64,000 nt of DNA from a virus. Under the pieces are notes generated by a model. The model saw only the letters and a program-made list of their open reading frames with translations. It was not told the origin of the DNA and made no database searches. Both the position numbers and the translations under genes were made by a program. Positions 7,028 through 62,644 of this stretch are shown here, piece by piece. The number at the start of each line of letters is the position of its first letter. The first letter of the stretch is position 1. Where the stretch lies: positions 1-64,000 of the IMG/VR virus record IMGVR_UViG_3300037189_021352. One strand, written 5' to 3'.

Positions 7028-7454
7028 GGGGGCGTATTGGTTTCGACTGAGCGCTGAAAACTTTAGTTGCAATCCGAGGAAGTCTGGTTGGCCTCGTTAA
7101 AAAGCTGGACAAACAAATAAATGCAACTGATAATACAGAAGCACTCTTAGCTGAAGCAACTCACATCATCAACAACTTCGAGGACTACCTCGCAGAAGAA
7201 GAGATGTACGAGCTCGCAGCCTAAAAAACAGAAATGGATCCTATTAAAATTTCTGGAGTAACGTAAGTAGGTTTGAGCAAGATCGTGAAACTCTTTAAAA
7301 ACAAATCGAGAGTAGCTGGTAGACTTCGCGCCAGCAGGTAAGACTAAAAAAATAGCTAACTACCTAAGGTCTAAAGAAAGTTAGCACAATTATGATTGTC
7401 GACGCTAGAGTCTAAGTTTTCAGGACAGGGGTTCAACTCCCCTCGCCTCCACCA
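7028..7454 (+). ncRNA. ssrA: tmRNA (transfer-messenger RNA), one-piece, phage-encoded
   Basis: The 5' end GGGGGCG (7028-7034) pairs with CGCCTCC (7444-7450) to form the alanine-tRNA-like acceptor stem, followed by A and an encoded CCA (7452-7454). A T-arm with loop TTCAACT (7432-7438) sits between AGGGG and CCCCT. Just inside the 5' end is the tmRNA signature TTTCGAC. Helix 2 is formed by GAAAACTTTAG (from ~7057) with CTAAGTTTTC near 7412-7421. The first pseudoknot stem CCGAGG / CCTCG lies at ~7075-7095, as in bacterial tmRNAs. A resume GCA codon at 7123 opens a 33-codon tag frame ending TAA at 7222-7224; the downstream part forms further structured elements. The 427-nt RNA would rescue stalled ribosomes and tag nascent peptides for proteolysis. 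Confidence 0.96.
7123..7224 (+). other. tmRNA tag-peptide reading frame (33 codons)
   Basis: From the GCA resume codon the tag reads ATDNTEALLAEA, then THIINNFEDYLAEEEM, then YELAA and stop. The C-terminal ELAA resembles ClpXP-recognised tag ends (LAA). The length of 33 residues is about three times that of the E. coli tag, and the codons favour C-ending forms unlike the surrounding phage genes. Confidence 0.88.
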
Positions 7455-7456
7455 TT

Positions 7457-8038
7457 TTATTTTAATTGAAGATATACTTCCCCATAAGCTTCTAACATTC
7501 CCATGAGATGTTGAAACCGTTGTTGAGTTAAATCAGACCAATCTTTTAAATCTTCCATAACTGCGTCTGCTTTATCTCTAATAAGATCTGCTGCATTGTC
7601 TTTTTCACAAACTTTTAAAGAATATTCATAGGGTTTTTCTTTAGCAGCAAAATGAACTGCTGTAAGCAAAGCAGCCCCTCCCTTAGCTTCAGCTTTCTTT
7701 TGAATATCAGCAGCTCCTTTTTTACGTTTAGTAATAAATTCTTTTGGTTCTAATGGTTGCTTGGCTTTTAGTTTGATAGCTTCTGTAAGCACCTCTAGAC
7801 TTTCTTTTAAAGCTTTTAATTGGCCTCCTCTTCTTAAGGCTCCTCTATAATTTGAAGCTTGCAATTTAGCTTGAGGAGAATTATGATGTTTTGAAACCCA
7901 TTGACTTAATTTTTGTAATTTAGAAGAAGTAGAGAGTCCTTTAAGACTTAATCTAAATTTTTGCCAGCTATCTGAAGAGACTACTTTATCTATTTGTTGA
8001 TGAGTGGCTTCAGAAAAAAGAGTTTCAAAATCTTTCAT
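7457..8038 (-). CDS. Hypothetical late protein with capsid-targeting-like N-terminus
   Basis: This 193-residue, mostly helical, Lys/Ala-rich protein has no recognised domain. The N-terminus MKDFETLFSEA resembles the leader of T4 internal proteins (MKTYQEFIAEA) and those of other proteins in this window. A basic stretch (TKRKKGAADIQKKAEAKGG) lies near the middle. Its stop codon lies 2 bp from the convergent tmRNA 3' end. A GATAAGTA late-type octamer lies 7 nt upstream of the start. I infer a virion-internal DNA-associated protein, without direct proof. Confidence 0.6.
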   Translation of the reverse strand: MKDFETLFSEATHQQIDKVVSSDSWQKFRLSLKGLSTSSKLQKLSQWVSKHHNSPQAKLQASNYRGALRRGGQLKALKESLEVLTEAIKLKAKQPLEPKEFITKRKKGAADIQKKAEAKGGAALLTAVHFAAKEKPYEYSLKVCEKDNAADLIRDKADAVMEDLKDWSDLTQQRFQHLMGMLEAYGEVYLQLK

Positions 8039-12647: not shown

Positions 12648-12962
12648 ATGGATGAAGTCTTTATCATCAATGAATCTTTAAAGGATCAATTGGTTCAAAA
12701 TTTTGGTATCACTTATGCAAAAACCATTTTTCATAAAAACGGAAGTGTATATTTAAGTGATCCTTTTTATGAAACAGAAGCAAGATGGCCAGATTATCAA
12801 GCTTTTAAAAATTTAAAATGGGAAGAAGCAGAAGACTTGGGTGAAGTTTTATATAAAACCAAAAATGAAATAGAAAAAGCTGGTGGACAAATGACTCAAC
12901 CCATATTTGAAATTTTAAATAATAAACCACAACTTGTGTGGGCTGTGTTTTTAAAGAGTTGA
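12648..12962 (+). CDS. Hypothetical protein, 104 aa
   Basis: The protein is soluble, with an aromatic-rich centre (YETEARWPDYQAFKNLKWEEAED) and a C-terminal strand LVWAVFLKS. It starts 3 bp after the preceding gene and its last 12 bp overlap the end of the convergent 880-residue gene. No family was recognised. Confidence 0.55.
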   Translation: MDEVFIINESLKDQLVQNFGITYAKTIFHKNGSVYLSDPFYETEARWPDYQAFKNLKWEEAEDLGEVLYKTKNEIEKAGGQMTQPIFEILNNKPQLVWAVFLKS

Positions 12963-15593
12963 TTTGAAAAAGTCTTTAAAGTTTTCATTTAAAGGCAAGC
13001 CAAGTCCTTCTCTAGTTGCCTGATATAAAGTTTTGCCATTAACTGTTATATCATTAGAAACACCTGTGGCTTGTTGAAATCCTGTCTCGTTTTTTTCTTC
13101 TGCAAATTTACGAGCCAAGGAACCAGAAATGCCTTCAACGGCAGATACACCTGCATCTGCATTTCTAGCACCACTACTTTCAAAACTTAATGCTACAATT
13201 TCTCTACCATCAGCTTTGCGTATATCTGCTCTATTCCAATTTGTGAGAAGAGTCTTCATATTTTCTTCTTCTTTACCACTCAAGCGATCATCACCAGCAA
13301 CAAATACTATATTTCTAAATTTCTCATTATACAAATATTTTGCAGCAGCCAGTACTGATGACATAGGTTGAGGCACTATATAAGAAGCAAATTGTGGGTA
13401 TATTTTTTTAATAAACTCCCGTTTGGTGTCTATATCTAATGGATCAGTTTTTTTATTTTGAGAAGTGGAAAGAAATATGAAAGTGTTGCGGCCACCTATT
13501 TCCACTGCCTTTTGCATCAATAATCCATGACCAATAGTGGGAGGATTCATACGCCCAAAACAAAAAGCTGCTACTGGTAATGTTCTTTTATGTTTTACAG
13601 ATTCCAAATCTTGAGGAGTATCTTTTCTTTTTTCAAAGTTAGCTTTACTAAAAACCAATCGATCTATTAATTTAAGTTTATCTTTACCACTGCCAAAAAC
13701 ATACCCCTCATGAGAATCTACTTCTCCGATGAGAGCTTGAATAGGTAACCCGGTTTGTTGCAGATCAATTTGCCTTTTAATATTAAGTTTAAGTTCTGTT
13801 AAGCTAGCCCAAATTGCCCATATACCATACAAACCAGCAGCACCGTCTGTGTAAAGCCATCCATTTTTATTATCACCTAAAAGTTTTAACGTAGCTTTAG
13901 GACTTAATTTCCTTTCCAAATATTGTAAAAATCTAGGAATGATGTCTGTTGCAATATTATTTTGTTCTAACATTGCAGTGATAAATGTGGTCATATTACC
14001 CAACAAACCTTTAGCTTTAATTACTTCAAGTTCTTTTAAAAACTTTTCAACTTCTTCTTTATTGTCATTTATAGTTTTTTTGACATCTGCAACTAAACTT
14101 GTGGGTAGTGTTACTTTAGGTTCTTCTAATAATTCACCAGTTAAAAATGCTACACCTTCATTTTGTTTTAAACCTCGCAAACCTTTTAGAGGCACATCAT
14201 CTCCACCAAAACTTGAAATAAAAGTATGCACTGCGATACCACCAACACTGCGAGAAATGTCTCTACCAGTATCAGAATCTATTTTAACTTTGTATTTTAC
14301 AAGATTTGGTTCAAATACATAATAATCTTTATCTGTATCTGGTACACCAGACCACATAAGATCTCCGAAGAAAAATTGATCTGCAACGTGTGGTGTGGCT
14401 CTTTTAAGAACCGGTACTAATAACGCTTCTGCTCTCCACAAACTTTCTCTAACAGTATTTCTAGATTCGTCATAATTCTTGATAGTGGTAAAATTTAATT
14501 TACCATTAATCATTTTATCATACATGTGTTTATCTACGAATAGAAATTTTCCATTTGGATTTTGTTTAGAGGGTAGTTCTAACCAACCAAAAATTAAAGC
14601 CGGAAAACCATCCCATTTTAAAGAAATTGTTTTACCATTTTTTGCCAAAGAGGTTATTTCTTTAAAGGCTTTCATAGCACCCTCTATACCACCAGTAAAA
14701 ATACTATCTTCCAAATGTTCTATGCCTTCTTCTATTATGGCGCTTTCGTTTTGAGTGTAAAATTGTTTGATGGCGTTCCATTTTTCTGGTTGATCTATTA
14801 ATTTATTCTTAATACCACTGAGACTGGCCAAGTCTCTTCCGGTGGCTGTTGGGCCTAATAATCTTTTTGCCATCTCATCTTTATTATTAGTAATCACTTC
14901 ACCGGTGTCTCGATTTACCAATCCACGATCTGGACTATACTGTAAGTTTCCTTTTCCGGTTTTGGGGTCTACGGTATCACTTGCCAATATTGTTATTGCC
15001 GGGTAAATGTTGTTCCATAGATCCCCTCCTGTCATGCCCGGATCTTTTGAAAAGTCATGGGTGTGTAAAGGCCAAGCCTGGCGCGGCCTTATAATCAAAT
15101 CAACAGAATGATTTTTTCCGTTAGCTGAATAATTTACCGTTAAAGCACTAGAACCAAAAGTTGTATGGTAACCATTATCGGTCATATATTTTGCTAGTTC
15201 CCATCTGCTAGCCGCTAATTGTTCTTTTTGTTTTTTGATCGGATCAGCTAAAATGGTTGCCAGTGCTTTTGGCCCTGTTGGAGTTTTTACCGTTGGGTTA
15301 TGCTCATCTGTATATTCTTTAATATCTTTAGGAAACGCCTTTACTAATTCAGTCGGATCTATTAAAATGTCAATGTCCCCAGAATCTTTTCTACCACCTC
15401 CTCCATAAAGATGATCTGGGTCAAAACTACCAGCACCCCCAGCACCCCAGTATGAATCCAGTTCTGCTTTTTGAAGAATTGGTTGCAGTTTAGATTTAGC
15501 TGTTAAAAAATCTTGTTCATTGACTCGAGAAATTTCGACTCCTTGTTTTGCCAAAACTTTGGCTGCTTCTGAGAAAAACTCTTTGAAATTCAT
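12951..15593 (-). CDS. Triple nucleotidyltransferase protein: Pol-beta-type, KxDG ligase-type and HxGH-type domains
   Basis: Three unrelated nucleotidyl-transfer folds appear in series. (1) Residues ~60-170: Pol-beta-type site, GGGGRKDSGDIDILID with Asp73/Asp75 and a third acid in SVDLII (Asp165). (2) Residues ~320-645: covalent ligase/capping fold with motif I KWDG (Lys326, Asp328), FFFGDLMW, motif IV EGYVF (629-633) and motif V Lys639/Lys641. (3) Residues ~672-830: cytidylyl/adenylyltransferase fold with FCFGRMNPPTIGH (TxGH variant, His689) and ISGSLAR (822-828). The N-terminus MNFKEFFSEAA resembles T4 capsid-targeting leaders; the C-terminus repeats NFKDFF. A late-type octamer lies 13 nt upstream. 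Possible roles: RNA/tRNA repair, NAD-linked chemistry or nucleotidylation of host targets. The domain calls are firm on motifs; the function is open. Confidence 0.8.
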   Translation of the reverse strand: MNFKEFFSEAAKVLAKQGVEISRVNEQDFLTAKSKLQPILQKAELDSYWGAGGAGSFDPDHLYGGGGRKDSGDIDILIDPTELVKAFPKDIKEYTDEHNPTVKTPTGPKALATILADPIKKQKEQLAASRWELAKYMTDNGYHTTFGSSALTVNYSANGKNHSVDLIIRPRQAWPLHTHDFSKDPGMTGGDLWNNIYPAITILASDTVDPKTGKGNLQYSPDRGLVNRDTGEVITNNKDEMAKRLLGPTATGRDLASLSGIKNKLIDQPEKWNAIKQFYTQNESAIIEEGIEHLEDSIFTGGIEGAMKAFKEITSLAKNGKTISLKWDGFPALIFGWLELPSKQNPNGKFLFVDKHMYDKMINGKLNFTTIKNYDESRNTVRESLWRAEALLVPVLKRATPHVADQFFFGDLMWSGVPDTDKDYYVFEPNLVKYKVKIDSDTGRDISRSVGGIAVHTFISSFGGDDVPLKGLRGLKQNEGVAFLTGELLEEPKVTLPTSLVADVKKTINDNKEEVEKFLKELEVIKAKGLLGNMTTFITAMLEQNNIATDIIPRFLQYLERKLSPKATLKLLGDNKNGWLYTDGAAGLYGIWAIWASLTELKLNIKRQIDLQQTGLPIQALIGEVDSHEGYVFGSGKDKLKLIDRLVFSKANFEKRKDTPQDLESVKHKRTLPVAAFCFGRMNPPTIGHGLLMQKAVEIGGRNTFIFLSTSQNKKTDPLDIDTKREFIKKIYPQFASYIVPQPMSSVLAAAKYLYNEKFRNIVFVAGDDRLSGKEEENMKTLLTNWNRADIRKADGREIVALSFESSGARNADAGVSAVEGISGSLARKFAEEKNETGFQQATGVSNDITVNGKTLYQATREGLGLPLNENFKDFFKSTL

Positions 15594-15606
15594 ATTAAAT
15601 ATATTC

Positions 15607-15614
15607 TATTTAGT
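15607..15614 (-). promoter_or_regulatory. Late-type promoter ACTAAATA (minus strand)
   Basis: The octamer ends 13 nt before the ATG at 15593; the same longer spacing occurs at the tail sheath gene. It pairs divergently with the plus-strand copy at 15629. Confidence 0.5.
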
Positions 15615-58415: not shown

Positions 58416-59090
58416 TTATTCGATGTTTTGTTTGTTGATAAAATTTAAAGCCTCAGAACATGCCGGAAACAATTCACAAAAACTTTTCTTAATGTTGTCC
58501 GCTATGTCCCTGTGTTCCAGTTGAGTATCCTTTTTACATCTTAATTGTAGATAATGTATCCAGGATCTTATGTTTCCTGTCATATATAAAGTTGTCTGCA
58601 CACAAAGAGGAAGAACCTTGCGAGCACTTTCTCGGGCTCCTCCTTTGGAGATAATATATTCATACAATTCTATTCCACCTGTGACATGGTCTACAATTTT
58701 TTTAATGTCTTCTGGCTCCAAAGGCAAAATCTCTTCACTGGACTGCCTATTTTTTTCTGCTTGTTTTCTTACATCAAAGGATTCTAATCCAGTCACCACA
58801 CTATATCGTTGACTAAATTCTTGAAAAGAAAAAGATTTATGTCGCAAAATTTGTGCAGATATGTCTCTGCTGGTTTGAATTTCTACAGTCATAGAAGCTT
58901 GTTCGAAAATAGACCAATGTTCGTGTTCTATACAGTATTTTATTAATTTAGAAGATGTATCTAAATTTAATTGATTAGATGGATTAGACACCCTAGCACA
59001 ATAAACTATAAATTCTTCTGCTGATAAAAATCTGGTATTATCTTCAGATCTTATATAAGGTTGTGTAATGGCTACTACTTTTGTTTGCAT
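58416..59090 (-). CDS. thyX: Flavin-dependent thymidylate synthase ThyX
   Basis: The ThyX motif (RHRx7S in the family) appears as RHKSFSFQEFSQRYS, with Lys for the third position. Other family marks are ARVSNP near residue 33, EHEHWSIFEQASMTVEI and the C-terminal RSWIHYLQLRCKKDTQLEHR. It makes dTMP from dUMP with FAD and methylene-THF, downstream of the dCMP deaminase. 224 residues is normal. It overlaps the DpdA-like gene by 16 bp. Confidence 0.93.
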   Translation of the reverse strand: MQTKVVAITQPYIRSEDNTRFLSAEEFIVYCARVSNPSNQLNLDTSSKLIKYCIEHEHWSIFEQASMTVEIQTSRDISAQILRHKSFSFQEFSQRYSVVTGLESFDVRKQAEKNRQSSEEILPLEPEDIKKIVDHVTGGIELYEYIISKGGARESARKVLPLCVQTTLYMTGNIRSWIHYLQLRCKKDTQLEHRDIADNIKKSFCELFPACSEALNFINKQNIE

Positions 59091-59890
59091 AAGTCTTTAA
59101 AAATTTTAATATTGTCTTTTATAATTTCTATTTGATCATCTGTGACTGGTTCATCAAAAATATCTATCATCTTTTGAGGAATTTTATCTTGTAAATTTTT
59201 ATCAAATTGATAGGATTTTTTATAAAAACCTGACAAGACTGGATGAGAAGTATCTATACTTTCTATAAAAGAAAGTTGATTGTCTCTGTACCAACTAAAT
59301 TCTAAAGGAATTCCACAACCTAATAAATGATGAGGTTTATTCTGATTAATAATTCCTTTATCCAACAAATATCTAACCAAAGATATTCGCCCGTCACTAA
59401 AAGATTTTGCTTTAGATTGAATATCTTCTCTCCAATTTCTCAAATAAAAATCATAACCAAAGCTTATTGCTATTTTATCTGCTCTTTCATTCATGAAGTG
59501 GTAAGCCTTTTCAAAATCTTCATGACATTTGCCTTGTAAAACACCAATTTTCTTACCAGTTAACACTGATAAATCAAAATCTTTGTTAAATTTTTCATAA
59601 GAAGCCAGATTTTCTTCACAATTTTGCCAAACATCTGGCACAATATACTCATCTGGTTGGATTCTTAAGAGCCATTTGTAGTATTTTTCAAAATTAAATG
59701 CCTCTCCCAGCTCAAATAAGCTGCAGTCCATGATAATTTTGCGATCATTGTGCTCAAAAAAATCCAAATAACTCTTTGATTCTTCTAATAAATGTACCAA
59801 ACAGTAGTCATAATCTGTCACGGACTGCACCAAATCCATAATTTCCATAGGGGCTTCGTGGGCTATTTGCATATTTTTATATAATAACAT
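59075..59890 (-). CDS. TGT-fold DNA transglycosylase candidate (DpdA-like)
   Basis: The protein resembles tRNA-guanine transglycosylase-type barrels: IIMDCSLFELGEAF (Asp55 at the substrate-recognition position), EYIVPDV (Asp86), KKIGVLQGK, HHLLGCGIPLEF (as the GVG-x-P loop of TGT) and SIDTSHPVLSG (Asp213 at the nucleophile position). At 271 residues it is shorter than bacterial TGT and close to phage DpdA forms that put 7-deazaguanine bases into DNA. FolE2 and QueD-like genes in the same block support this. No zinc Cys cluster is seen. It starts at the base where the polymerase gene ends. Confidence 0.65.
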   Translation of the reverse strand: MLLYKNMQIAHEAPMEIMDLVQSVTDYDYCLVHLLEESKSYLDFFEHNDRKIIMDCSLFELGEAFNFEKYYKWLLRIQPDEYIVPDVWQNCEENLASYEKFNKDFDLSVLTGKKIGVLQGKCHEDFEKAYHFMNERADKIAISFGYDFYLRNWREDIQSKAKSFSDGRISLVRYLLDKGIINQNKPHHLLGCGIPLEFSWYRDNQLSFIESIDTSHPVLSGFYKKSYQFDKNLQDKIPQKMIDIFDEPVTDDQIEIIKDNIKIFKDLCKQK

Positions 59891-62232
59891 TATACTCCAA
59901 ACAAATCAAACAAATCTGTCTGCACTTCTTTGCCAGTTTGAGGCAATCTCCACCCGATACAATCATAAAAACGTTCTAACGGCGGTGAAACAATCTTGTC
60001 AAACATGGTTTGATAGTCTGGTTTGACGTGTTCTAAGAGTTCTGGTGGGTACTTTTCCATAAAAGCCATACTTTTAAAATTAAAAGCATTCTTACCTGTA
60101 TAGAAATACTTTAATTTCATAGCACTGCCAATGGATTCATATATGTGATCTAATTTAAAATGCTTAAGAAGCTTGTTAAAATGAATAGCACTGCGTGCCT
60201 GGAGAGTGGTTCCTTTGCCTATTTGACCAAATTGATCTATCTTGGCTTCATATTTTTCATAATCTGAAATTTTGGTTCTAATTGAAATCTCTTCTACTGG
60301 CATATTGCAAAAATCTTCATGAGCTTTCTTAAAAATAGCATCTGCTTTCTTTTTATCTTGTGCTAACATAGCAAATTCAATAACACTTTTGATTAATTCC
60401 TTCACCTCCTTTGAAATAGTGGAGCGAGCTATCTCAACACCTACATATTTAAAAGGTTTCTTAGGAGTCTTACCTTCTTGATCTATAACATGCAGTATAT
60501 ATCTCTTCTTTTGATCAAACAAAGCCACATCACAAATAGTTTCTTGTTTGAAAACAAACCGAGCATCTGTAGATTTGAGTTCTTTTTTAGCCCAAACAAT
60601 AATTTGTTCATTTAAATACTTGTCAATTTCCTGGATAACTTGACGCGCTTCTGGTGTAATCTTGTTATCTTTGAGTAATTGAAGATTTAAGACCTTTAAA
60701 ATAGGCTCCACTGAGAAATATGCCGAGTCGGTATCTCCATATCTATACAATTCTTCCTTCTTGCCTACAAAACCTCGCTGACGAGCATAATCTAATACAA
60801 TTTCTGGTGCCTGTTTAGCCACTGTCTGGCCGGTTAAAGTAATACTGGCTGAGTGGTCAATGTCAAATAATGGTGAATACTTCTGAGCAAATACACCATA
60901 AATGGAATTTAAGATTAATTTGAATACATTTTGTTGAGTATCCAGGTTAAGGATGTCACCTTCTATCTTAATTTTCTCTTCTGGGTCTGTGATTGTTTCT
61001 GCTTTATCTATCAATTTAGACATTTCTTTTTTAGTTTGTACACGTTCTGCATACAATCTATCAATCAGCGCCGGCACAACACCTCGAAACTTCTGTGTAT
61101 ATAAAACATTATACTTTGAAATAGATAATTCCTCTTTTTGTATTAGTCTATTAAACTTTTCTCCTGATAAAGTTACTAATTTTTCATTGGCTAATTTAAT
61201 AGTGTATTCATTGTTTTGAATTTCTAAAATTTTTCCTATTTTGGTCTCCGGGGAAATGTTTAAAGTGATGATTGTATTTGGATATAGGCTGTTTGCATCA
61301 TAGCTCACTACAGATTTACACAAACCTCTCTCCGGGTCATGCACATAACCGCCTACATATTCGTCTCGAATACCATCATTCTTGAAAGTAGGTATACGAT
61401 ATCCTTGTAAAAGAGCTTGATGTGCTACTGCTCCGGTAATCATAGACACTTTTCCGAGAGATTGTTCAAATGGAATGAAGCCTTTATAGGACAAAGCTCT
61501 GATCAATTTAAGATATTTGAGCTTGTTTTCCATTTTAGCAAGCAATCTAACGTCTTGAATGTTATATTCTACGAATAAATCCCAGTCTGATTCTGATAAT
61601 GACGCTAGATTGGTGCCACCGGTGTCTGTTTTGCCTTCTTGTAGCTCATATTCAGCGATATAATTCAAAGAATAAGACTCTCTATCTCCTCGTGCAAAGG
61701 TTTTATACACCTCCATGTAATCAATATTACTAACTCCACGTATATACCAGCGATCAATCATCTTGCCCATCTTATTCATAGCTACATTTTCTCTGTAGTA
61801 GATAGCTCTTACTGGTGAAAGCCTGGATGCTTCATCTTCTCCAAGGAGTTTGTACATACGATTCATTACATAGGGTACATCAAAGCCTTCTGTATTCCAA
61901 CCCACCATGATATCTGGAGGGTCTTTCTCCCAGAAACTCAAAACTGATTGCAACAATTCTGTTTCTTTCTTGCAATGTGTATAAACAATATTATCTTGTC
62001 GAGGCTTGAAAGGTTTTAAACCCCAAGAATAAAATTTTTGAGAGATAGAATCAAAGATTGTTATCAAATTGATAGGATCTTTGGCTTGTTTGGGTTCTGG
62101 AAATTCACCTTGCTGACTATAACAAGAGTTAAAATAGGATGTCCAACATTGTTTGTCTTCATCCCACACCTCATAGTCTTCAAACATGTTACTATTGCGA
62201 AATTCTCCTAGTGTTATTGTTGATTCATCCAT
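59890..62232 (-). CDS. 43: Family B DNA polymerase, main part (T4 gp43-like)
   Basis: After an N-terminal stretch without motifs, the exonuclease region continues with EFPEPKQAKDPINLITIFDS, then MVGWNTEGFDVPYV (Exo II) and the Exo III region NIQDVRLLAK. Polymerase motifs are SYDANSLYPNT (A), LILNSIYGVF (B) and YRYGDTDSAYF (C). The first exonuclease motif (DIET) is on the separate 132-residue ORF upstream. The two ORFs differ by a frame shift at a seven-A run; removing one A would give a 917-residue polymerase (T4 gp43: 898). Confidence 0.93.
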   Translation of the reverse strand: MDESTITLGEFRNSNMFEDYEVWDEDKQCWTSYFNSCYSQQGEFPEPKQAKDPINLITIFDSISQKFYSWGLKPFKPRQDNIVYTHCKKETELLQSVLSFWEKDPPDIMVGWNTEGFDVPYVMNRMYKLLGEDEASRLSPVRAIYYRENVAMNKMGKMIDRWYIRGVSNIDYMEVYKTFARGDRESYSLNYIAEYELQEGKTDTGGTNLASLSESDWDLFVEYNIQDVRLLAKMENKLKYLKLIRALSYKGFIPFEQSLGKVSMITGAVAHQALLQGYRIPTFKNDGIRDEYVGGYVHDPERGLCKSVVSYDANSLYPNTIITLNISPETKIGKILEIQNNEYTIKLANEKLVTLSGEKFNRLIQKEELSISKYNVLYTQKFRGVVPALIDRLYAERVQTKKEMSKLIDKAETITDPEEKIKIEGDILNLDTQQNVFKLILNSIYGVFAQKYSPLFDIDHSASITLTGQTVAKQAPEIVLDYARQRGFVGKKEELYRYGDTDSAYFSVEPILKVLNLQLLKDNKITPEARQVIQEIDKYLNEQIIVWAKKELKSTDARFVFKQETICDVALFDQKKRYILHVIDQEGKTPKKPFKYVGVEIARSTISKEVKELIKSVIEFAMLAQDKKKADAIFKKAHEDFCNMPVEEISIRTKISDYEKYEAKIDQFGQIGKGTTLQARSAIHFNKLLKHFKLDHIYESIGSAMKLKYFYTGKNAFNFKSMAFMEKYPPELLEHVKPDYQTMFDKIVSPPLERFYDCIGWRLPQTGKEVQTDLFDLFGV

Positions 62233-62245
62233 ATATTGCGCAAGT

Positions 62246-62644
62246 TTAAGATTTTTTTCTTATTTTAATTTTATGATCATCCTTATATCGCATGCCGTAT
62301 GTTTCAATGTCCCAAAAGAATATCTTTAGAGGATTCTCTAATGCCTCAGGTTTATGTATTTCATCTCTAAAAGAAGAGAGAAGAAACTCCTGCTCGCAAC
62401 TTAAATTGTGAAACAATCTCTTGATAGGAGTTTCGTTAACAAATTTGTTTCGTTCAAATTGATTTTTAAACTTAACTTTCTTTAAAGGTGTATTAAAGAT
62501 AGATAATGCGTCTGCACCATAAGCGGATTCTACAAATAAATGCGGTTCGTAGCTAGATTCTAATTTGATTCTCTTTCCGTTTTTGTCCCATGTCCAGAGA
62601 TGAATACATTGTTTAGCAGAATCATAAAAGACATTTCGATACAT
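62246..62644 (-). CDS. 43: DNA polymerase N-terminal part with Exo I motif (split or frameshifted)
   Basis: The 132-residue ORF holds the N-terminal domain of a gp43-type polymerase and ends shortly after LKIFFWDIETYG, the first 3'-5' exonuclease motif. It stops in KIRKKS. The other frame is open from just upstream of the seven-A run (through KNLKLAQY) into the main ORF. It may be a real split gene, a programmed frameshift or a sequence error. Confidence 0.82.
   Translation of the reverse strand: MYRNVFYDSAKQCIHLWTWDKNGKRIKLESSYEPHLFVESAYGADALSIFNTPLKKVKFKNQFERNKFVNETPIKRLFHNLSCEQEFLLSSFRDEIHKPEALENPLKIFFWDIETYGMRYKDDHKIKIRKKS

Follow-up and report, generated by a model that had tools for sequence, protein, structure and literature searches.

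An 880-amino-acid (aa) protein of a T4-like phage, encoded in IMG/VR virus record IMGVR_UViG_3300037189_021352, is best explained, with a probability that we put at about one half, as a nucleic-acid end-repair enzyme that is loaded into the phage head and enters the cell together with the DNA. We analyzed positions 1 to 64,000 of the record, a stretch of 64,000 nucleotides that we refer to as the window. As judged by sequence comparison and fold prediction, the protein joins three types of nucleotidyltransferase, each with its catalytic motifs, whose genes form a conserved module that is variably fused: a Pol-beta-like nucleotidyltransferase (NT, module 1), a member of the family DUF6267 (module 2), and a HIGH-type cytidylyl/adenylyltransferase (CTP, module 3). 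A preliminary description, made from the letters of the window, had proposed that a single chain holds three unrelated nucleotidyltransferase modules, and conservation, fold prediction, and fold search all back this proposal. Every motif that it named is present where it had been placed (NFKEFF at residues 2-7, SGDIDILID at 71-79, VDLI at 164-167, KWDG at 326-329, HEGYVF at 628-633, KLKL at 639-642, TIGH at 686-689 with H689, ISGSLAR at 822-828, and NFKDFF at 871-876), and the conservation of these motifs is far above chance. The full-length AlphaFold model, built from a 136-sequence alignment, has a mean predicted local distance difference test score (pLDDT) of 91. Only DUF6267 exceeded the Pfam cut-off in the 880-aa protein, CTP_transf_like falling one bit short, and a PADLOC scan assigned the protein to no defence family.

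Module 1 has an invariant active site: S71, G72, D73, D75, and D165 are 100% conserved across 59 homologues. When the full-length model was used in a fold search of the PDB, DNA polymerases beta and mu and the PolX of African swine fever virus (AsfvPolX) were among the leading matches, the best match for module 1 being DNA polymerase beta (probability 1.00, E = 2e-3). Because the fold search gives no query coordinates, we assigned the fold to residues 20-283 from the positions of the motifs, and we read module 1 as a predicted Pol-X-like nucleotidyltransferase. Residues 1-285 had no match in Pfam, PHROGs, or PDB sequences, and no homologue of the window NT was found among GenBank phages by tblastn; a divergent homologue (L092) was required as query to reach the phages PA5oct, Atu_ph07, and Phosso. 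A second, distinct Pol-beta-like gene of about 340 aa, with GDIDLQM- and QVDFMW-type motifs, a leader of its own, and no Pfam match, lies beside NT and a DUF6267-CTP fusion in many relatives (for example at L026:4988-6001, L038:6891-7919, and L013:634-1653), and a close relative of the window phage has a small nucleotidyltransferase at L003:2410-3138 (Pfam NTP_transf_2, E = 1.9e-5).

Module 2 matches Pfam DUF6267 (PF19782, residues 291-657, E = 3.1e-29), a family with no assigned function. Among 81 homologues, K326-W-D-G329, G336, D411, Y434, and H456 are 100% conserved and K641 and R645 98% conserved, and the Glu and Gly of EGYV (residues 629-630) are invariant in an 88-row alignment of the family (in which they are E344 and G345); an H-x-E-D motif is also conserved. 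The covalent nucleotidyltransferase motifs I, III, IV, and V are thus present in the correct order, and a separate model of DUF6267 (pLDDT 94.6) shows a helical insertion between the strand that carries H456 and motif IV. In a viral fold library from which family members were excluded, RNA ligases of Catovirus, African swine fever virus, phage DSS3_VP1, and a marseillevirus, each a weak match, were among the leading named matches; searches of PDB sequences with modules 2 and 3 gave no meaningful match.

A chain of homology points in the same direction. The PA5oct protein EST35_0228, which has the motifs KIDG and SREGKGG, matches DUF6267 by hidden Markov model (3.4e-5), and the DUF6267 model matches by fold a 446-aa PA5oct protein (1.6e-5) that we took to be EST35_0228 on the basis of its equal length. 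EST35_0228 is in turn homologous to Phosso 446 (blastp, 5e-12) and to Atu_ph07 AUZ94878 (6e-10), and in Phosso and Atu_ph07 the ligase-like gene directly adjoins the NT gene, the position that is held elsewhere by DUF6267. Taken together, motifs, predicted fold, and this bridge suggest that DUF6267 is an RNA-ligase-like covalent nucleotidyltransferase. Since the fold and the family links of the ligase module lead to RNA ligases, RNA is more likely than DNA to be the substrate. DUF6267 was also seen at 31 loci (L276-L306) on contigs assigned to bacterial and archaeal metagenome bins, where it probably represents phage sequence; one of these loci (L279) is in the isolate record of Nonlabens xiamenensis.

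Module 3 carries the TxGH and (I/Y)SG(S/T)xxR motifs in a Rossmann-like fold and matches PHROG 3041, annotated as "cytidyltransferase," with an E value of 2.6e-26. The sequence GRMNPPTxGH is present in all ungapped rows of its alignment, and G767, D769, R770, S823, and R828 are 100% conserved (29 rows); its motifs are conserved from the window to the cyanophages or across the aligned rows. Phosphopantetheine, nicotinate mononucleotide, glycerol-3-phosphate, and choline-phosphate nucleotidylyltransferases were its fold matches in the PDB. Such matches to the folds of nicotinamide mononucleotide adenylyltransferase (NMNAT) and phosphopantetheine adenylyltransferase raise the alternative that the protein serves cofactor metabolism, module 3 raising the level of nicotinamide adenine dinucleotide (NAD) or another cofactor as an NMNAT or a similar enzyme, with the fusion merely tying it to NAD- or ATP-using partners, and a role in NAD metabolism has indeed been proposed for NMNAT-like proteins of virions (PMC9602691, PMC10665884). 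We give this alternative little weight: it leaves modules 1 and 2 unexplained, many relatives have NT and DUF6267 with no detectable module 3, and the motifs single out no substrate for module 3, which several adenylyl- and cytidylyltransferases match equally. It is still harder to credit that the protein is an enzymatically dead structural or scaffold protein that merely keeps nucleotidyltransferase folds. Some homologues are annotated, from mass spectrometry, only as structural proteins, but in each of the three modules the catalytic residues stay invariant even among highly divergent homologues.

The three parts occur in several states of fusion. Matches to the whole chain or to part of it were found in 47 IMG/VR contigs. 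All three modules are fused in the clade of the window (L001, L002, L008-L010, and the truncated L003 and L015) and in L013, whereas in most freshwater-type relatives, which are jumbo phages, a separate NT gene precedes a DUF6267-CTP fusion. Many other contigs encode NT next to DUF6267 with no detectable CTP, the two being a single protein in a few of them. NT was fused to DUF6267 or lay no more than 1.5 kb upstream of it in 42 of the 70 DUF6267-centred contigs with enough upstream sequence. Meanwhile, DUF6267 and the cytidylyltransferase are often neighbors in T4-like cyanophages, and in S-PM2 they form one unstudied protein, a fusion also found in UniProt; no NT was found in the cyanophages that carry DUF6267 and CTP. 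This series of fissions and fusions argues that the three parts are functionally linked, and the pairing of a Pol-beta-like with a ligase-like protein suggests that ends are rebuilt and then sealed. The view of the preliminary description that no system with this architecture had been described holds in a functional sense, in that the literature searched, which covered few subscription papers, mentioned neither DUF6267 nor such a three-part system; it needs amending insofar as the parts recur as a conserved module whose fusion is confined to certain lineages.

Because the fold of NT is nearest to DNA polymerases and some genomes with DUF6267 have no detectable DNA ligase, the main rival explanation is an enzyme of DNA gap repair or replication, in which Pol-X-like gap filling is coupled to DUF6267 as the phage's own DNA ligase, acting inside the infected cell, with packaging incidental if it occurs at all. 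Module 1 is indeed closest in fold to DNA polymerases beta and mu and AsfvPolX. DUF6267 was present in six of six cyanophage genomes searched and in the Methylophilales phage Melnitz, and none of these seven cultured Kyanoviridae-type genomes has a detectable ATP- or NAD-dependent DNA ligase, whereas T4 has the ligase but not DUF6267; homologues of gp30 were not found in cyanomyoviruses according to a 2010 review (PMC2984593). In several cyanophages, moreover, DUF6267 is close to uvsX, gp41, and mazG. No DNA ligase was detected alongside DUF6267 in this phage's record (G000) or in G001, G003, and G004, which are possibly fragments. Against this, the matches on the ligase side are to RNA ligases rather than DNA ligases, NT was not found in cyanophages, and the jumbo genomes G002, G005, G006, and G007 carry a DNA ligase as well as DUF6267, so that DUF6267 as a simple replacement for gp30 is weakened. 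On balance we regard a DNA repair or replication enzyme as an unlikely, though serious, alternative to virion-delivered end repair.

The evidence for delivery in the virion comes from the N-terminus, which the preliminary description had likened to the capsid-targeting leaders of T4. In the leader of T4 IPIII, residues 4 and 7 are needed for targeting and residues 8 and 10 for processing (PMC9026906). The IPIII leader MKTYQEFIAE and the sequence MNFKEFFSE/A, in which the slash marks the predicted site of gp21-type cleavage after E9, have the same spacing, one residue earlier in the latter (Y4-F7-I8-E10 versus F3-F6-F7-E9). Leaders were sought with an expression for this spacing, Y/F-x-x-F-I/F-x-E with an acidic cleavage residue. 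Because the number of leaders within this genome (6 of 132 genes, the background being 2.2%) is by itself too small to convince, relatives and T4 served as the test. In T4 the expression matched 9 of 158 genes tested, among them those for IPII, IPIII, Alt, gp2, and gp24 (p of about 1e-3 for gp21-processed or internal proteins), with four false-looking matches as well. T4 gene 30, for DNA ligase (L202:25745-27208; MILKILNEIAS), also fits the expression and is either a false positive or an unexpected match. Near DUF6267 in relatives, the leader was found at 95 of 757 N-termini, as compared with 10 for a reversed motif, 21 for a motif in which K replaces E, and 12 at residues 17-31.

This phage's record encodes a gp21-type prohead protease at 96061-96600 (PF03420, E = 2.5e-30), and homologues of two of the modules have been detected in virions. 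Homologues of module 3 are in the virion proteomes of S-SM1 (PMC3037559), S-SZBM1 (PMC9146016), and S-CREM2 (PMC10665884), the N-termini in the latter two being MRFRQFIIEA and MKNFSSFLTEA, and NMNAT-like proteins of the S-SCSM1 and S-CBWM1 virions have been reported as related (PMC9602691). The NT of PA5oct, a homologue of module 1, is listed as a virion protein on mass-spectrometric evidence. The DUF6267 protein of S-SZBM1 has no leader, and its absence from the virion list fits the leader rule, while also indicating that module 2 is not always packaged. With T4 as a positive control, the protease in the genome, and the virion detections, the likeness noted in the preliminary description is borne out, and the 880-aa protein is probably packaged through a T4-type leader, as its sequence and its homologues support. 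Two further proteins of this phage with the same type of leader (MKDFETLFSEA, window 7457-8038; MNFKSFYTEA, G000 100594-101079) may also be packaged. Downstream of the module in a relative (L026:10937-12798), consecutive genes have near-identical leaders (MRITELLE, MKINELLIE, MKIKDLLLE, and MRIQDLLIE) and may be a cluster for packaged proteins.

We propose that the 880-aa protein would be loaded into the head by means of its leader, which the gp21-type protease would clip after E9. The Pol-beta-like site would then add nucleotides to a broken 3' end, and the ligase-like module, adenylylated at K326, would seal the break, while the HIGH-type module might make or recycle a nucleotide cofactor or adenylylate an end or a small molecule. 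Carried in the virion, the enzyme could repair strands that host defence nucleases have cut, ahead of any phage gene expression. Repair of tRNA in particular was not favored over other substrates, no tRNA gene having been found in the record, which has only a gene for transfer-messenger RNA (tmRNA). In a search for a Pnkp-type partner with the AAA_33 kinase family, the record gave one weak match (E = 5.8e-4), below the cut-off.

The leader would also suit an injected host-takeover enzyme like T4 Alt, one or more of whose modules would attach nucleotides to host proteins or to RNA polymerase, as the preliminary description had also envisaged, and Pol-beta nucleotidyltransferases are listed among the predicted protein-modifying domains of polyvalent proteins (PMC5512222). 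That NT is constantly paired with a ligase-like gene suits nucleic-acid end repair better, however, and module 1 is nearer to DNA polymerases than to the small protein-modifying nucleotidyltransferases. Nucleotidylation of host proteins is less parsimonious than end repair, and we hold it to be improbable; this part of the earlier proposal did not find support.

Several observations count against end repair by a packaged enzyme. No activity is known for any member. The best PDB match of the DUF6267 model, an archaeal RNA ligase, superimposes poorly (E = 0.01, probability 0.47, TM score 0.19). Alignment of DUF6267 by hhalign with profiles of T4 Rnl1, Rnl2, and gp30 was not significant, and membership in these families is not claimed. 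At the end of the homology bridge, AUZ94878 matches Pfam RNA_ligase over nearly its full length with an E value of 0.002 and 18.7 bits, below the 27-bit cut-off. The motifs and folds of module 3 point to no single substrate. As for packaging, the virion detections are of homologues of modules 1 and 3 in other phages and never of the 880-aa protein, the PA5oct NT has no leader, and DUF6267, which in S-CREM2 lies at 58914-59762, is missing from the virion lists of S-SZBM1 and S-CREM2.

A broader reading, which we offer tentatively and consider somewhat improbable, is that of a widespread virion-delivered repair system composed of a Pol-X-like polymerase, an unrecognized family of RNA ligases (DUF6267), and a HIGH-type nucleotidylyltransferase. 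In T4-like cyanophages and jumbo phages the parts of this system would be encoded by three separate genes, by two, or as a single fused chain, and the system would repair host-cut strands at entry. Reading DUF6267 as an RNA-ligase-like partner of a Pol-beta-like NT offers a role that can be tested directly for a gene conserved in highly abundant marine viruses, and it touches on the long-standing puzzle of the ligase not found in cyanophages. The fused protein, if injected, would be the repair counterpart of T4 Alt, an injected host-modifying enzyme. The leader also offers a sequence rule for predicting particle-borne enzymes of T4-like phages.

The features of the gene are collected in the table below. 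The repetition of NFKEFF at the C-terminus stands in part: NFKDFF is present and a related motif is kept in the fused clade of the window, but the region is poorly ordered in the model. Likewise, the "late octamer" reported upstream of the gene is not TATAAATA; there is instead an element, CTAAATAG, 20 nucleotides upstream. TAAATA occurs about twice as often as expected upstream of genes in this phage (35 against 16.4 expected, n = 136), and a chance occurrence is expected upstream of about 12% of them.

Table. Features of the 880-aa protein and its gene, in window coordinates
Feature	Position	Strand	Basis
Gene for the 880-aa three-module protein	12951..15593	minus	open reading frame; fused homologues
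Capsid-targeting-like leader MNFKEFFSE, residues 1-9	15567..15593	minus	T4 IPIII leader spacing; enrichment of the N-terminal motif near DUF6267 in relatives
Module 1, Pol-beta-like nucleotidyltransferase, residues 20-283 (D73, D75, D165)	14745..15536	minus	invariant triad, 59 rows; DNA polymerase beta/mu fold matches
Module 2, DUF6267, RNA-ligase-like, residues 291-657 (KWDG 326-329, GD 410-411, EGYV 629-632, K641/R645)	13623..14723	minus	Pfam PF19782; invariant motifs; RNA ligase fold matches; homology bridge
Module 3, HIGH-type cytidylyl/adenylyltransferase, residues 670-843 (T-x-GH 686-689, ISGSLAR 822-828)	13065..13586	minus	PHROG 3041; phosphopantetheine adenylyltransferase/NMNAT/cytidylyltransferase fold matches
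C-terminal leader-like copy NFKDFF, residues 871-876	12966..12983	minus	sequence; related motif in fused clade
CTAAATAG, possible late-promoter-like element, 20 nucleotides upstream of gene	15606..15613	minus	TAAATA enrichment; weak

Elsewhere in the window, the tmRNA gene (7028-7454) has an unusually long predicted tag, ATDNTEALLAEATHIINNFEDYLAEEEMYELAA, and a family-B-like DNA polymerase (59890-62644) is apparently split into two reading frames of 132 aa and 780 aa.

How, then, does the protein compare with known systems? Its nearest counterparts are in T4-like cyanophages, in which T4-GC 71 (DUF6267) and T4-GC 190 ("cytitidyltransferase," found in virions) are homologues of modules 2 and 3 and are usually neighbors, being fused in S-PM2; the cyanophages differ in that no NT was found in them and in that their DUF6267 lacks a leader and is missing from the virion lists considered. 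In jumbo phages an NT homologue is close to a KxDG ligase-like gene (EST35_0228 and 0231 in PA5oct, AUZ94878 and AUZ94877 in Atu_ph07, and 446 and 447 in Phosso), but the ligase-like gene of these three phages is nearer to the classical RNA_ligase family than to DUF6267, the genes are separate, and no cytidylyltransferase was seen nearby. The RNA repair system of T4 (PseT/Pnkp with Rnl1 and Rnl2) resembles the 880-aa protein in its covalent lysine ligase motifs and in the role, proposed for the 880-aa protein, of mending broken RNA for a T4-like phage, whereas its partner enzyme is a kinase-phosphatase rather than a polymerase-type nucleotidyltransferase, and the T4 enzymes are not packaged. 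Bacterial LigD likewise combines polymerase and ligase activities in one chain, but its parts are a primase-type polymerase, a phosphoesterase, and an ATP-dependent DNA ligase, none of which was matched in the Pfam scan of the 880-aa protein. T4 Alt and the internal proteins share the leader spacing, and the genome encodes a prohead protease, yet their enzymatic content is entirely unlike that of the 880-aa protein. Finally, the polyvalent proteins of phages and conjugative elements have several catalytic domains per chain, Pol-beta superfamily domains included, and their delivery to the host is often predicted; ligase and cytidylyltransferase partners are not among the domains described in the part of the survey considered here (PMC5512222). 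Each of the folds is that of a known superfamily, and multidomain phage proteins that are packaged are an established theme (PMC5512222), but three linked nucleotidyl-transfer modules suggest a single pathway rather than a mixed effector.

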